DNA of 64,000 nucleotides from the NCBI RefSeq assembly GCF_023168145.1, contig NZ_BQYK01000003.1:151999-215998 (forward strand), written 5' to 3'. The position numbers were made by a program, and so were the translations under genes. Origin of the DNA: Sporosarcina sp. NCCP-2222 (GTDB lineage Bacteria > Bacillota > Bacilli > Bacillales_A > Planococcaceae). The notes under the pieces are model-generated. The model searched no databases and was not told where the DNA came from. It was given only the letters and a program-made list of their open reading frames with translations. Positions 32,403-40,053 of the stretch are shown here, piece by piece. The number at the start of each line of letters is the position of its first letter. Position 1 is the first letter of the stretch.

Positions 32403-35400
32403 TTAGAACAGTGACAGTTGGTTCGTATCTGGCATTCCTTCCAAACAACCAAGGGTATCCATATATTCAACGACTGTCTTCGAAACTCTGCCCCGCTGCT
32501 GTAAATCCTCTTTCGATAGGAAAATCCCGTCTTTTCGGGCTTCTACAATCATTTTGGCGACGTTCGTCCCGAGTGAAGGAATCGAGTTGAACGGCGGGAT
32601 GAGCTTATTATCCTCAATAATGAAATCCGTGGCGTCTGACTTGTACAGGTCTGGTTTCGCGATGGAAAATCCTCTTTCACACATCTCGAGTGAAATTTCC
32701 AACACGGTCAATAAGCTTTTCTCTTTCGGTGAGGCATCCAATCCCTTGTCGTTGATCTCTTTAATTTTCGCACGTATAGAAGCCGGTCCCTTGGTCATGG
32801 TGACCAGGTCATAATCAGTGGCACGAACAGTAAAGTACGCCGCATAATACATGATCGGGTGATGCACCTTGAAATAGGCGATGCGCAATGCCATGAGAAC
32901 GTAGGCGGCCGCATGGGCTTTCGGAAACATGTACTTGATTTTCTTACAAGAATCGATATACCAATCCGGCACGTTATTCGCTTTCATTTCGGCTTCAAAT
33001 TCAGGAGTCAGCCCTTTCCCCTTACGCACTGATTCCATGATCTTAAAGGCGATGGACGGTTCCAGCCCTTGGTAAATCAGGTACACCATAATATCATCAC
33101 GACAGCCGATTACATCAGACAACTCACAAATTTTATTTTGAATTAATTCTTGTGCATTGCCGAGCCATACATCCGTCCCATGCGACAGGCCGGAAATTTG
33201 AATGAGCTCTGAAAATGTAGATGGCTTCGTCTCTTCCAACATTTGACGTACAAATCGGGTTCCGAACTCCGGCACGCCAAGTGTCCCTGTCTTGCAGTCG
33301 ATCTGCTCCTCTGTGACCCCAAGTGACGAAGTGCCGCTGAAGAGTGCCATAACCCCATCGTCATCCGGCGGTATTGTTTTCGGGTCGATGCCTGACAAAT
33401 CTTCCAGCATCTTGATCATGGTCGGATCATCGTGTCCCAGAATATCCAGTTTCAATAAGTTGTTATCAATGGAGTGGAAGTCAAAATGTGTTGTCCGCCA
33501 ACTTGAGCCGGTATCATCAGCTGGATACTGGATTGGCGTGAAATCGAAAATCTCCATATGGTCTGGCACAACTATAATTCCGCCCGGATGCTGCCCTGTA
33601 TTACGTTTTACACCTGTACAGCCTTGAACTAGGCGATCGATCTCGGCACCGCGGAGGTGAAGATTATTGTCGTTCATATACCCTCTGACATACCCATAAG
33701 CAGTTTTTTCGGCAACCGTTCCGATTGTACCGGCACGATACACGAAATCCTCACCAAATAGCACCTTCGTATAATTATGGGCGTGCGCTTGGTATTCTCC
33801 ACTAAAGTTCAAATCAATGTCGGGAACTTTGTCGCCGTTGAATCCTAGGAACGTTTCAAACGGAATATCCTGGCCATCTTTTTTGAACATCGTTCCACAT
33901 GACGGGCAGGCCTTATCCGGCAAGTCAAAACCGGACCCGACCGATCCGTCATCAAAGAACTCGGAAGTTTTACATGACGGACAAATATAGTGCGGAGGCA
34001 TTGGATTCACTTCTGTGATTTCCATCATGGTCGCTACTAGGGAAGAACCGACTGATCCACGGGAACCGACCAGATACCCGTCATCCAAAGATTTCTTAAC
34101 TAGTTTATGAGAAATAAGATAAATAACCGCAAATCCATTACCGATAATCGAAGTCAATTCCTTCTCAATTCTCGCCTCAATAATTTCAGGAAGCTCTTCT
34201 CCATATATTTTATGGGCCATATCATATGTCAGCTGGCGAACTTCCTCATCTGCCCCTTCGATAGCAGGCGGATAGAGATCGTCTTTAATAACCTTCACGT
34301 CCCCTATGCGTTCCATAATGGCCTTTGGATTATCAATAACGATCTGCTGTGCTATCTCATCACCCAGGAAAGAAAACTCATCGAGCATTTCATTCGTCGT
34401 TCTGAAGTGGACGGACGGCAAGGAGTGGCGGTTTAATGGATTGGCACCGCCTTGGGAACGAACAAGAACCTGCCGATACATCCCATCATTTTCGTCAATG
34501 TAATGCACATTTCCTGTCGCACAAACCGGAAGGCCTGTCTTCTTGCCCAGTTTGATCATTTTCCGCATAATGTCTTCCATATTCCATTCATCGCGTATCA
34601 ATTCCAGTTCAATCAAATGGGAATAGACCGGCTTCGGATGTAGCTCAAGGTAATCATAAAACTTGGCAATTTCCTCTACTTCTTCAAGCGATTTCTGCAT
34701 CAGCCCTTCAAAAACTTCACCTTTATCACAGCCGGATCCAACCAGCAGCCCTTCACGGTGTTTCATCAATAATGAGCGGGGAATCCGAGGCACCCGATAG
34801 AAATAGTTAAGGTGCGAGTAGGATACGAGTTTGAACAAATTTTTCAAGCCCGTATCATTTGCAACTAACAACGTGCAATGAGATGGCCGAGATCGTTTAT
34901 AAGCATCTCCTTCGCCGATGTTTTTATTGAAGTCGTCGAGCCACTCAATTCCTTTTTCAGCAGCATCCTTCATAAGTTTCACGAATAAGTATGCTGTTGC
35001 TTCCGTGTCGTAGATCGCACGGTGATGCTGTGTCAATTCAATATCAAATTTCTTGGCCAATGTGTTGAGCCGATGATTTCTTAACTCGGGGTATAGGAAG
35101 CGAGCAAGTTCCAGCGTATCGATGACTGGATAATTTTTGTCATGGACGCCAGTCTTTTTGCTAGCTTCGTAAAAGAATCCCATATCAAAAGATGCGTTAT
35201 GCGCAACGAGTATGGAATCCCCGATAAACGTTTTAAAGTCACGGATAACTTCCTCGACTTCCGGCGCATCTTTCACCATGTCATCTGTAATTCCCGTCAA
35301 TTCCGTTGTCGTCGAAGACAACGGATGATGCGGATTGGCAAACCGTTCAAAACGTTCGGTGATTTCCCCGTTTTGCACTTTTACTGCAGCGAGTTCGATG

Positions 35401-36713
35401 ATTGTGTCATATACAGCAGAAAGACCTGTTGTTTCCACGTCAAAAACAACATATGTATCGTCTTCCAGCTTACGATGCTGTTCATCGTATACGATTGGAA
35501 CCCCATCATCGACCAGATTGGCCTCCAAACCGAAAAGGACTTTAATGCCATGCTTTTTCCCGGCTGAATAGGCTTCTGGGAATGATTGGACATTGGCGTG
35601 ATCCGTTATGGCAACAGCAGGATGGCCCCATTTCGCAGCCTGCGCTACGAGTGCAGACGCGGATGTCACTCCATCCATCTGGCTCATATTCGTATGGGCA
35701 TGCAATTCAATCCGTTTTCGATCGTCAGGCGCTTTGTCCTTTCTGACAATCGGCGGAACTTCCATGATATCTTGCGCCATCATAATTAGATCCCGCACAA
35801 ACGTATCGTTTTGAATACTCCCTCTCGCCCGGACCCACGCGCCTTTCTTCATTGTTTTCATCAATTCGGCATCTTCGTTGTCCCTGGAGAACATTTTGAC
35901 AAGGATGGAATCGGTATAATCTGTTACTTTGATTGTCAGCAATGAACGTCCGCTTCGAAGTTCCCTCACTTCTGCATCAAATACGTATCCTTCGATCGTT
36001 ACACGGCGTTCTTCGTCTTGTATTGTTTTAATATCAAGGATCGGTTCATCCGGTTTGATTGGTACACCAAGGACAAACGGCCTGTTGTTTTCAGGGCTGT
36101 CCTTTTTGGTCGTGTCACGCTCTTGCATAGAAGCCAGTGCTTTCAGGGCATAAGCCTCTTCCTCTGCTTGCCGAGCTGCCATGAATGCGAGGCGCGCTTC
36201 TTCTTCCTCCTTGTTTTCTTCTTGCAAATGAAAATCGAATAACAGGGAAGGAAACCCGAACGTGCCATAGACCTCCGCTAGCAATTTTGCATATTTATTC
36301 TTCAATGTCTGCATTTCAAACTCGGTACCCGAACCGAGCATGAGCTTTTCCCCTTTGACTTCTGGACGCTGATTGCTGAGGCGCTCACGAATCGGAGGAG
36401 ACATATCTTGTATTTCTTCCAAAATCAACGGCCAATAGCTGGTGATCAGCTCTTGATCCATCCTTCTCTCTCGGCATGTAACGTGGAGCTGAATGGTCGC
36501 AATCGATGCAAAAGCATCCAAAACACGCTGTTTGAGGGTTTTATAGACAGCAATCGGCAATGGCTGGTCATTGACAATTTCAAACCGCCAAATCCTCGAT
36601 TTTTTATGAATCGCCAGCCGCTCTAACGTGGCATTCTCAAAGTGCACGACAAACTGATCGTCGGTCATATTAATTTGTTGCAACAAAGTCATCAATTTCA
36701 TTTTTCCGTCCAT
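32403..36713 (-). CDS. polC: DNA polymerase III subunit alpha, Gram-positive PolC type
   Basis: 1436-aa replicative polymerase, nearly identical in length to B. subtilis PolC. An N-terminal domain and an OB fold are followed by a PHP domain ([14 protein letters not shown], starting near residue 335). A DnaQ-like 3'-5' exonuclease is inserted in it ([29 protein letters not shown]). A zinc-finger region ([18 protein letters not shown]) and the polymerase palm and fingers ([22 protein letters not shown]) follow. The start at 36713 follows AAAGGAGG. The 262-bp spacer to the ProRS-like gene carries a terminator and an unassigned leader. Confidence 0.98.
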
Positions 36714-36930: not shown

Positions 36931-36968
36931 GAAAAACAAGGGAAGCGCTGTTTCGCAGCCTTCCCTTG
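36931..36968 (-). terminator. Intrinsic terminator after the proS-like gene
   Basis: CAAGGGAAGGC / GC-GCTTCCCTTG stem followed by TTTTTCCC on the minus strand, immediately after the stop codon. The remaining about 215 nt up to polC have no T-box signature; -10-like CATAAT and TAGAAT occur without matching -35 elements. Confidence 0.88.
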
Positions 36969-36975
36969 AGTCAAA

Positions 36976-38658
36976 TCAAACATGGAAGAACGACTGCAAT
37001 TTTTCGGTCACTTCTTCCTTTTGCCATTCTACTGTTTCTCCTGTCTCCCGGAATTTGATTTCTATTATTCCGTCCGTTGCTCTTTTTCCAACGGTTAGAC
37101 GAATTGGCACACCGATCAGGTCGGCATCAGCAAATTTCACACCGGGCCGTTCTTGCCGATCATCATACAAAACTTCATATCGATAGGTTCTCAAGAGATA
37201 ATAAAGTTCTTCAGACAATTGATGCTGTGTCTCATCATCATCATTTACGGTGAGTAAGTGGATGTCAAATGGAGCAAGCTGTTTTGGCCATTTGATTCCA
37301 TTCTCATCATGGAATTGTTCGACGAGCGCAGCGAGCAAGCGCGATACACCAATGTGATAGGTGCCCAACAGATAAGGCTGATATTCACCTTCGCTGTTTT
37401 GAAACTCCGCTTTGGCCGGTTGGCTGATTGCTGTCCCCTTATTGGAGATACTGCCAATTTTTATTCCTTTGGCAAATCGGATGGTTCCTAATCCATCAGG
37501 AGAGGGATCGCCTTCTTGGACAAAACGCAAATCCAAGTACGAATCGACCGCAAAGTCCCTCTCCGGATTTGCATGCATGAAATGAAAGCCTGTCTCATTG
37601 GCTCCACAAACACCATTGACGACGGAGCCGACTGCCAGATCTGCGATAACTTTCACACCGACCGGCAATTTGATTGGACCAATTGATCCCGCTTCAGCCG
37701 AAAAGAGATGTTGAACTTCATCCGGCGTGGCCAGACTGACTCGCATGGCCTTCATATAATGTTTCAATTTCCGTTCGTTGATTTCATGATCTCCTCTACA
37801 TAGCACGGCTACCATTTCATCATCAATTGTATAAAGTAATGTTTTAATAATTTGGGATGGTAGAACTTGCAGGAAATCCGCCACTTCACTTACTGTATGC
37901 ACATTCGGCGTGGCGACTTTTTCCATCCCCATCATCCGAATCTCACCCGTCTGTTCTTCAGGCTTCGTTTCCGCCCAATCTAAACTGGCAGCATAAGAAG
38001 AGGAATCGCTGTAAGCAATAATATCGTCTCCTATAGAAGACATCGCAATGAATTCAAGAGATCTGCCCATATCCGCTTCCATCCCTATTTGAGCATTTAC
38101 TTCTCTGTAGTTCAATCCCAATCTAGTGAAAATGTTTGAGTATGCCTGATTAAATTGCTCCTGCATGTCATGAAGACTAGTATGTTCCGCATGAAAGGAG
38201 TAAGCGTCCAACGAGATAAATTCCCGGCTTTGCAGCAACCCGAATCTTGGGCGCTGAATATCGCGAAACTTCTTTTGAATTTGATAAAGTGTTACAGGAA
38301 GCTGCTTGTAGGAGGCTATATGATCCTGTATGAGAGCAGTCATTGAATTTGCGTCAGATGGACAAAGAGCGTACCCTCTCCCTTGGTGATCATGCAAAGT
38401 AAAAGCCTCATCACCAAAGGCTTCGCCAGGATGTTGCAGTATGGGCATAACCGCTTCTGCTGCTTCTATCTTTTCCATTTCTTCATGAATTACATTTTCG
38501 ATTTTGCGTAATACCTTTTGGGCTAAAGGCAGAAATGTAAAAACACCACTTGCATTCGTACGGATATAGCCTGCTTTTACTAACAGCTGATGTGAAGTGG
38601 CATCGATGTCAGCAGGTGTTTGCCTCATTGTCGGTATGAACGTTCGTGATTGTTTCAT
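36976..38658 (-). CDS. Prolyl-tRNA synthetase-like protein with a degenerate aminoacylation site
   Basis: 560-aa protein in the proS position between rseP and polC, with the full bacterial ProRS layout: class II catalytic domain, INS editing domain (about 220-390) and anticodon-binding domain (about 460-560). Against canonical ProRS, the WxxSGRW segment is missing (about 8 residues lost near 76-85). The TxE loop (THEE) reads S101-D102-A103-N104. Motif 2 FRDE...LLRGREF reads FRDI...LLQSREF (I134, Q143, S144). Motif 3 GIGVSR reads HIGVSR, keeping R440. The INS features K272 and GANETGFH remain. The start is the ATG at 38658 after AAGGTGGGG. Prolylation activity is doubtful; an editing or regulatory role is inference. 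Confidence 0.85.
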   Translation of the reverse strand: MKQSRTFIPTMRQTPADIDATSHQLLVKAGYIRTNASGVFTFLPLAQKVLRKIENVIHEEMEKIEAAEAVMPILQHPGEAFGDEAFTLHDHQGRGYALCPSDANSMTALIQDHIASYKQLPVTLYQIQKKFRDIQRPRFGLLQSREFISLDAYSFHAEHTSLHDMQEQFNQAYSNIFTRLGLNYREVNAQIGMEADMGRSLEFIAMSSIGDDIIAYSDSSSYAASLDWAETKPEEQTGEIRMMGMEKVATPNVHTVSEVADFLQVLPSQIIKTLLYTIDDEMVAVLCRGDHEINERKLKHYMKAMRVSLATPDEVQHLFSAEAGSIGPIKLPVGVKVIADLAVGSVVNGVCGANETGFHFMHANPERDFAVDSYLDLRFVQEGDPSPDGLGTIRFAKGIKIGSISNKGTAISQPAKAEFQNSEGEYQPYLLGTYHIGVSRLLAALVEQFHDENGIKWPKQLAPFDIHLLTVNDDDETQHQLSEELYYLLRTYRYEVLYDDRQERPGVKFADADLIGVPIRLTVGKRATDGIIEIKFRETGETVEWQKEEVTEKLQSFFHV

Positions 38659-38753
38659 TATACCCCACCTTTTCACCAATAACTTTGAGTTGTTTTGTTC
38701 CAATAAATCGCTTGTTTGGTCAATAAATGCAAGTTGCTCTTTAAGCGACTAAT

Positions 38754-38777
38754 GGAGTCCCGGAAATCCGAGACTCC
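38754..38777 (-). terminator. Hairpin after rseP (probable weak terminator)
   Basis: GGAGTC / GACTCC plus CGG / CCG stem with one mismatch, 14 nt after the rseP stop. The following ATTAGTCGC is a poor U-tract. Confidence 0.5.
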
Positions 38778-38790
38778 ACCACTTTCGATA

Positions 38791-40053
38791 TCAGTTGAAG
38801 AAAAATTTCTGGATATCGTTCCAAGTTACAACGAGCATGAGAACCATCAGAAGCATGATGCCGACAAAATGAACCATGCCTTCCTTCTGTTTATCAACTG
38901 GTTTGCCACGCAACCCTTCGAACAGGAAGAACAGCAGCCGCCCGCCGTCTAGAGCCGGCAAAGGAAGCAAGTTCATGATGCCGAGATTGATGCTCAAAAT
39001 TGCTGCAAAATTCATTAGGCTATAGATCCCGAATTGTGCAACAGTCTCGGTTGTTTTATAAATACCGACTGGTCCTGATAACGCATCGATACTAAATTTA
39101 CCCGTTACAAGCTGACCTAACAGTTCGAATATCCGCTTAATCCAGTAAAACGTCTGCTCTGCCCCGTATACAAAGGACTTGCCGACACTTTTTTCATAAA
39201 CAGGCTCCGTACTCACTCCGAGCTGGCCAAACTCCATCCCGGAATCTTCAATGACGGAAGGCGTAACACGCAAAGTCTCTTGCTGACCATTCCGCAGTAC
39301 AGTGAGCTCGAGCTCCTTGCCAGGATTCTTTTGAACAATATCGGTAAACGCTGTCCATTTCTCAATCTTTTTTCCATTAATGCCGATCACCAGGTCTCCG
39401 GCTTGCATTCCGCCACTTGCTGCTGCGGAATTCGGTACGACTTCATTGATGCGTGGTTCGTTTGTCGGAACCCCAATCAGCAAAGCGATCGCAATGAACA
39501 GGAAGAAAGAAAGGATAAAGTTGAACAAAGGACCTGCAAAAATAGTCATCGCCCGGCTGCCGAGCGGCTTCGATTCGAATTGCCGATCATATGGGGCAAT
39601 TAACGTTTCCTGCCCTTTCTCCAGTATGACAGCATTGCGGGCAATCGGGAATCGGACCAGTTCCTCAGAATCATTATATCCTTCAATATAAAGCTTCTTT
39701 GACAAGTCGGCTGATTCCGTTTCAAGGAACATAATATTCGGATCCGAAACATTCCGGTTCAAATAAATCTTCTCTACTTCATCTTTGTCATTTAGAAGCA
39801 GTCCGACACGGTAGCCCGGCTGGAGTTCAACAGTGTCAAAATCCTGGCCCGCCATCCGCACATAGCCGCCAAGCGGCAACAGACGGATCGTATATAATGT
39901 TTCACCTTTTTTTGAATAAAAGATTTTAGGACCAAAACCGATTGCAAATTCCCGGACCATGATGCCCGATTTTTTCGCAAATAAAAAGTGCCCCAATTCA
40001 TGAAAAAAGACGAGCGATCCAAAAATAACGATAAACGCAATAACGGTTTCCAT
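38791..40053 (-). CDS. rseP: Site-2 intramembrane zinc protease RseP/RasP
   Basis: 420-aa membrane metalloprotease. The zinc motif is H18-E-L-G-H22 in the first helix, a PDZ domain lies in the middle (GGMQAGDLVIGINGKKIEKW), and the third zinc ligand is in NLLPLPALDGGRLLFF near the C-terminus. About four membrane helices are seen. In B. subtilis RasP cuts anti-sigma factors such as RsiW, remnant signal peptides and FtsL. It follows dxr by 99 bp in the uppS-cdsA-dxr-rseP order. The start at 40053 follows AAGGTGG. Confidence 0.96.
   Translation of the reverse strand: METVIAFIVIFGSLVFFHELGHFLFAKKSGIMVREFAIGFGPKIFYSKKGETLYTIRLLPLGGYVRMAGQDFDTVELQPGYRVGLLLNDKDEVEKIYLNRNVSDPNIMFLETESADLSKKLYIEGYNDSEELVRFPIARNAVILEKGQETLIAPYDRQFESKPLGSRAMTIFAGPLFNFILSFFLFIAIALLIGVPTNEPRINEVVPNSAAASGGMQAGDLVIGINGKKIEKWTAFTDIVQKNPGKELELTVLRNGQQETLRVTPSVIEDSGMEFGQLGVSTEPVYEKSVGKSFVYGAEQTFYWIKRIFELLGQLVTGKFSIDALSGPVGIYKTTETVAQFGIYSLMNFAAILSINLGIMNLLPLPALDGGRLLFFLFEGLRGKPVDKQKEGMVHFVGIMLLMVLMLVVTWNDIQKFFFN

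Follow-up and report, generated by a model that had tools for sequence, protein, structure and literature searches.

The way in which INS, the editing domain of bacterial prolyl-tRNA synthetase (ProRS), finds its tRNA is the subject of a study reportedly by Das and colleagues. The portions of PMC3973320 drawn on here describe the E. coli INS domain as lacking any intrinsic tRNA specificity and as depending on the anticodon domain of ProRS; editing by INS is little affected by changes in the acceptor stem, and the K279A ProRS is an editing-defective enzyme. The same account has the free-standing protein ProXp-ala clearing Ala-tRNAPro where ProRS is without INS (PMC3973320). In the part of PMC4787780 used here a complete ProRS is named among the factors able to hydrolyse misacylated tRNA in trans, and ThrRS-ed is also named. 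PoxA is named in the corresponding part of PMC9437257.

The window, i.e. the whole stretch of 64,000 nucleotides of Sporosarcina DNA that was analysed, carries a degenerate proS between rseP and polC, in the gene order cdsA-dxr-rseP-proS-polC (neighbours named by eye; Table 1). A sequence-only reading of this DNA had reported an intact frame of 560 codons with a good ribosome-binding site and its own terminator. The frame is indeed open from its ATG, and a start at an in-frame TTG upstream would give 575 codons; an A/G-rich stretch lies ahead of the ATG and a hairpin follows the gene. This hairpin and the one between rseP and proS both come from folding, and the terminator pattern scan listed neither. 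The same reading had called the gene paralogous. That label does not fit, as the gene occupies the native proS place, beside a non-orthologous synthetase, and is not a duplicate elsewhere. The domain order of the product is that of a full ProRS, not the single INS domain of a free-standing ProXp-ala. In an AlphaFold model (mean pLDDT 85.9) the INS and anticodon domains are confident. The lowest ten-residue blocks (191-200, 71-90, 131-140 and the linker 231-240) are read from the model of this protein alone. Neither the predicted structure nor a fold search goes beyond confirming that this is a ProRS fold.

Table 1. Features of the degenerate proS locus, in window positions.
Feature	Position	Strand	Remarks
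Degenerate bacterial-type ProRS, 560 aa	36976..38658	-	native proS place
rseP, upstream neighbour	38791..40053	-	named by eye
polC, downstream neighbour, source of the species tree	32403..36713	-	named by eye
Ribosome-binding site, A/G-rich stretch ahead of ATG 38658	38663..38673	-	by eye
proS terminator hairpin	36937..36968	-	folding: -20.3 kcal/mol, z -4.0
Hairpin between rseP and proS, likely rseP terminator	38744..38783	-	folding
N-terminal catalytic part, motifs 1 and 2, residues about 1-215; 25/68 invariants lost	38014..38658	-	
Deleted WxxSGRW block, site between G78 and E79	38424..38427	-	
S101-D102-A103-N104 replacing the proline-binding THEE loop	38347..38358	-	
Motif 2 E to I134, R132 kept	38257..38259	-	
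Motif 2 Q143-S144 replacing R-G	38227..38232	-	
INS editing domain, tRNA_edit match, residues 250-365; T250, K272, H359 kept	37564..37911	-	
K272, counterpart of editing lysine K279	37843..37845	-	alignment; PMC3973320
C-terminal catalytic part, motif 3, residues about 389-455; 8/22 invariants lost	37294..37494	-	
Anticodon-binding domain, Pfam match, residues 468-556	36991..37257	-	

Damage to the protein was gauged by aligning 100 intact bacterial-type ProRS (the window protein and 99 from relatives), with the residues invariant in 15 out-of-family ProRS as the yardstick: 90 in the catalytic, 26 in the INS and 25 in the anticodon region. Of the 90 catalytic invariants 57 survive in the window protein and 33 are lost, an excess over the rest with a Fisher p of 3.7e-05 when sites are taken as independent. 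As a control, all 30 further out-of-family ProRS, outside the yardstick set, retain at least 0.92 of the catalytic set. The residues singled out by the sequence-only reading reappear in the alignment, namely S101-D102-A103-N104, I134, Q143-S144, the RSLEF segment and, in place of the motif-3 glycine, H435; the reported WxxSGRW deletion is seen as the missing columns W80, G84 and R85. In reference numbering the THEE loop, motif-2 E142 and R151, K158 and motif-3 G442 are lost as well. Both class II arginines persist, R132 in motif 2 and R440 in motif 3. The hallmarks of an active bacterial-type ProRS, with WxxSGRW, the TxE/THEE loop, fRxE of motif 2 and motif 3 all intact, are not found, and we infer that aminoacylation has been lost. 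The product scores above the cut-offs of two NCBIfam equivalogs (609 against 558; 551.9 against 306.7) and by score would be named a proline-tRNA ligase, yet the gene is very probably not one.

In the INS region 24 of the 26 invariants are kept. The two that are lost, S225 and D227, are positioned ahead of the tRNA_edit (PF04073) match, within which all 17 invariants remain. The match scores 90.1 bits against a cut-off of 25.5 and includes the catalytic lysine; T250, K272 and H359 correspond to T257, K279 and H366 in reference numbering. K272 and the GANETGFH stretch had been pointed out before and are found in the alignment, and the C-terminal domain is as conserved as had been claimed, with 24 of the 25 invariants of the anticodon/C-terminal region retained and one lost.

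The sequence-only reading predicted a second, active ProRS and set a search for it as a check; the search found one. In this genome, rated 99.95% complete, a search located class II core domains at seven places, which were named by eye except for the two ProRS and a short ThrRS. An archaeal-type ProRS of 485 aa (C4:354332-355789; TIGR00408 592.6 bits, cut-off 437) has Thermus thermophilus ProRS as its best solved match, and its conserved stretches are intact, which marks it as canonical. It has no tRNA_edit (INS) match. A tRNA_edit domain with the catalytic lysine and co-occurrence with an INS-less ProRS are two marks of a trans-editing protein of the INS family, and both are present here; such a protein would also hydrolyse Ala-tRNAPro and make no Pro-tRNAPro. 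A ProRS search of the genome returned one bacterial-type match (E <= 1e-20) and one archaeal-type match (E <= 1e-60), which excludes a hidden second bacterial-type enzyme. At E <= 0.001 tRNA_edit is matched at two places, proS and ybaK. The YbaK homologue (C4:4082-4417; TIGR00011 170.8 bits, cut-off 153.25), of a family known for Cys-tRNAPro, is the only other tRNA_edit protein found; with a third match absent, a free-standing ProXp-ala in this genome was ruled out. As a separate observation, the genome also encodes a 414-aa ThrRS (L003:1192-2436) without the N-terminal and editing part (TIGR00418 positions 164-564), which coexists with a 645-aa ThrRS named by eye.

A T-box leader lies ahead of the archaeal-type proS (102.8 bits, gathering 93), with a specifier that, read by eye, appears to be CCU (Pro); none was found around the degenerate proS. 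Among the 22 loci scanned, the window's own included, 16 have a T-box ahead of the archaeal-type gene, five over the gathering threshold and eleven more at E <= 0.01, of which one passes gathering as well; for two of the six misses the gathering threshold was the only one applied. The idea that the T-box marks genomes with a sole synthetase, hinted at by 5 of 20 loci over gathering, was dropped when the permissive scan gave 11 of 15, canonical genomes included. The four loci without a T-box at E <= 0.01 belong to group-c genomes (L049, L057, L060, L068), and the other 11 have one. The Bacillaceae-1 sRNA (RF01690) was matched near an archaeal-type proS (L055:210-276) and, in another genome, between proS and polC (L267:4477-4542). 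Two pattern searches for tRNAPro genes gave zero matches, which says only that the patterns did not fit.

We compared divergence by domain, taking p-distances to one canonical relative, G035, with seven further canonical relatives for comparison. PolC places the window closer to this reference (0.15) than the seven (0.17-0.23). The catalytic part is nevertheless at 0.44, about twice the canonical 0.17-0.25; INS, at 0.45 against 0.31-0.40, has evolved somewhat faster, and the anticodon domain, at 0.27, falls inside the canonical range of 0.25-0.33. Selection was estimated as pairwise Nei-Gojobori dN/dS, in which dS is high or saturated in several cases and a few pairs show very little change. 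In the window's clade (three pairs) the whole protein gives 0.10-0.18 and the catalytic part 0.12-0.23, compared with 0.03-0.07 and 0.00-0.05, respectively, in nine canonical pairs. Within the clade INS lies at 0.07-0.19 and the anticodon domain, the best kept part, at 0.03-0.06. A ratio near 1 had been named beforehand as the sign of a decaying copy; the values are well below 1 in every domain and, together with the open frame, the whole-protein ratio rules out a pseudogene. The degenerate proS is under constraint and, from the distances and ratios by domain, this constraint has been lifted mainly on synthesis.

With INS and the anticodon domain kept, the window protein combines the parts that editing of Ala-tRNAPro is known to require, and an archaeal-type ProRS without INS suggests a need for separate editing. 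Residue retention, domain-specific rates and the INS-less second ProRS support an editing role indirectly and make it likely. The reading that we favour, and hold to be moderately probable, is that the synthesis-dead, full-length ProRS proofreads tRNAPro in trans on behalf of the enzyme that has no INS. The archaeal-type enzyme would charge tRNAPro and, assuming that it mischarges, would make some Ala-tRNAPro; the conserved anticodon domain of the degenerate protein would recognise this tRNA and its INS domain would hydrolyse the alanyl ester in trans. The dependence of INS on the anticodon domain would explain why the whole scaffold has been retained.

Degenerate proS genes recur among the relatives. 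We classed 130 of the 136 matched genomes (100 plus 30 further), leaving aside G022 for its frameshifts (polC and rseP are frameshifted as well), G025 and G125 for contig ends, and G116, G134 and G148 for matches in two pieces. With degenerate defined as less than 0.90 of the catalytic set, 37 of the 100 proteins, the window's included, fall into this class, 36 of them within the genus; G051 is borderline with a retention of 0.89. An archaeal-type ProRS is present in all 37 degenerate genomes and in 41 of the 63 canonical ones. Since 25 of the 30 canonical genomes of the genus also carry it (Fisher p = 0.016, uncorrected for kinship), its presence was dropped as statistical support and is better read as a requirement than as proof. 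The lesions vary from group to group. In a PolC tree of 49 genomes there is support for each of four lineages (groups d and e, the short group and the window's clade), and the c groups fall together. On this tree the contrast of canonical and lost takes 8 changes, one being the absence of proS in G068 and G070; in a group table with G074 as its own group the canonical label needs 7 changes, 6 of them forced by well supported branches. We put the events of decay or loss at about 6-8, one an outright loss. The fork that holds the c groups, the short group and other lineages is without resolution, so that c and short could represent a single event.

Whether the lesions are clade-wide had been set as a check, and in the window's clade they are largely shared: all four genomes have the WxxSGRW block deleted or eroded, the THEE histidine changed to D, the motif-2 E to I or V and the motif-3 G to H. 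In the THEE loop, G043 keeps T109 and E111, and G016 keeps E111. The case of G043 indicates that decay has been graded. The editing lysine is present in all four genomes and the histidine in three (H366 is R in G016). Across the 37 degenerate proteins K279 is retained in 27; among the 27 proteins outside the short group it persists in 26. In group c1 the catalytic part shows dN/dS of 0.02-0.06 in four pairs, about the canonical constraint, with its loops altered, which suggests that an altered site may still be in use in some relatives. The motif-2 R and the first glutamate of THEE are retained throughout the c groups, whose proteins may be active.

The short group comprises ten Sporosarcina genomes (L073-L082) with a 533-aa proS in which decay is more extreme. 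T257 has become G and H366 F in all ten, K279 is gone in nine and the anticodon-region invariants are down to 0.52-0.60; dN/dS is about 0.1 in five of six pairs, the sixth (G008-G066) having too few changes to read. Editing residues lost while the frame is kept make editing an unlikely reason for retention there. T257, K279 and H366 are likewise all lost in G014. The gene is absent from G068, G070, G086 and G088, four genomes of two related genera, and rseP abuts polC in G068 and G070, the two loci looked at. No tRNA_edit match at all was found in G068 and G086, both genomes searched of one related genus, which argues that editing is dispensable in relatives. In the relative G013 a group II intron (RF02004, 155.1 bits) splits polC (L267, 1260-1455) near residue 969, and a frame beside the intron resembles, by eye, a reverse transcriptase.

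Several of these observations weigh against an editing role: the lost INS residues in the short group, G014 and G016, the four genomes without proS, the somewhat faster evolution of INS, the survival of R132 and R440 and the graded decay of G043. The two surviving arginines, the T109 and E111 of G043, the constraint on the altered c1 catalytic part and the equivalog scores would suit a protein with weak or altered synthetic activity, whether for another amino acid or for adenylate formation only. We consider this distinctly unlikely for the window protein, which has lost the WxxSGRW block and the motif-2 glutamate and has its proline loop replaced, and whose clade shows raised dN/dS in the catalytic part compared with the canonical pairs. 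Slow decay of a redundant synthetase heading for loss would account for the genomes without proS, two with the empty place seen, and for a whole-protein dN/dS above that of the canonical pairs. It is very unlikely, given that dN/dS stays well below 1 throughout and that the lesions cluster in the synthetic site and are not evenly spread; all 37 degenerate genes are also open, though open frames alone were classed and the frameshifted G022 was left out.

Within the window's clade no part is better kept than the anticodon domain, the short-group gene is under selection after the loss of its INS residues and the archaeal-type proS carries a T-box. These points would agree with a tRNAPro-binding regulator or chaperone that adjusts how much tRNAPro is free, and with it, for instance, the signal to that T-box, with INS kept mainly for the fold. 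Were binding all that mattered, the retention of the editing residues in the window's clade would be unexpected, and in the short group the anticodon invariants fall too; we judge this explanation unlikely. Trans-editing remains our preferred reading for the window protein. Its extension, that Sporosarcina and a relative have repeatedly made the native ProRS a full-length tRNAPro proofreader, in about 6-8 events with one outright loss, and that the scaffold of the short group passed to a third use once its editing residues had gone, is offered as a tentative possibility only.

Among the matches listed in a search of the open-access literature on ProRS duplicates, editing and dead synthetases (titles and abstract starts) there was no report of such a case, and an open-access search for ProRS with Sporosarcina gave no paper. 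If the protein edits in trans, it would represent a third way to accurate proline decoding, beside INS in cis and free-standing ProXp-ala: a displaced synthetase retired into an editor, in a genus where this has seemingly been repeated. The repeated losses provide independent evolutionary replicates for asking whether editing, tRNA binding or both were selected, with the genomes that have no INS-like match as natural controls. Nature would then have repeated, several times over, an experiment that shows what it pays to keep of a synthetase after its relief from synthesis.

HisZ and PoxA/EpmA are degenerate or re-used synthetases with new roles; the reuse is alike, but they are not editing proteins, unlike what we propose here. 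Archaeal ThrRS-ed, split from ThrRS-cat, is likewise derived from a synthetase, combines editing and anticodon domains and edits in trans; its counterpart in NCBIfam is the Ser-tRNA(Thr) hydrolase entry PRK14938. It concerns another amino acid and an editing fold other than INS. Unlike ThrRS-ed, the window protein retains a nearly complete catalytic domain, and its active partner is a non-orthologous synthetase. ProXp-ala and YbaK, as described in PMC3973320, have a homologous editing domain that acts in trans; they are single-domain proteins, whereas the INS of the window protein sits inside a full ProRS scaffold. The ThrRS pair T1/T2 of Anabaena is, in the part of PMC4787780 used here, another case in which one of two synthetases can edit for the other, although T1 is complete as an enzyme, switches role when zinc is short and joins its duplicate in heterodimers. 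Streptomyces ProRSx is similarly an additional ProRS gene whose role has changed and, unlike our proposal, is reported in the text of PMC9437257 drawn on here still to ligate proline, to a tRNA with an alanine anticodon. Compared with the bacterial ProRS that carries INS (TIGR00409; PDB entry 2j3l, Enterococcus faecalis), the protein described here has a broken synthetic site and is accompanied by a second ProRS of the other type.
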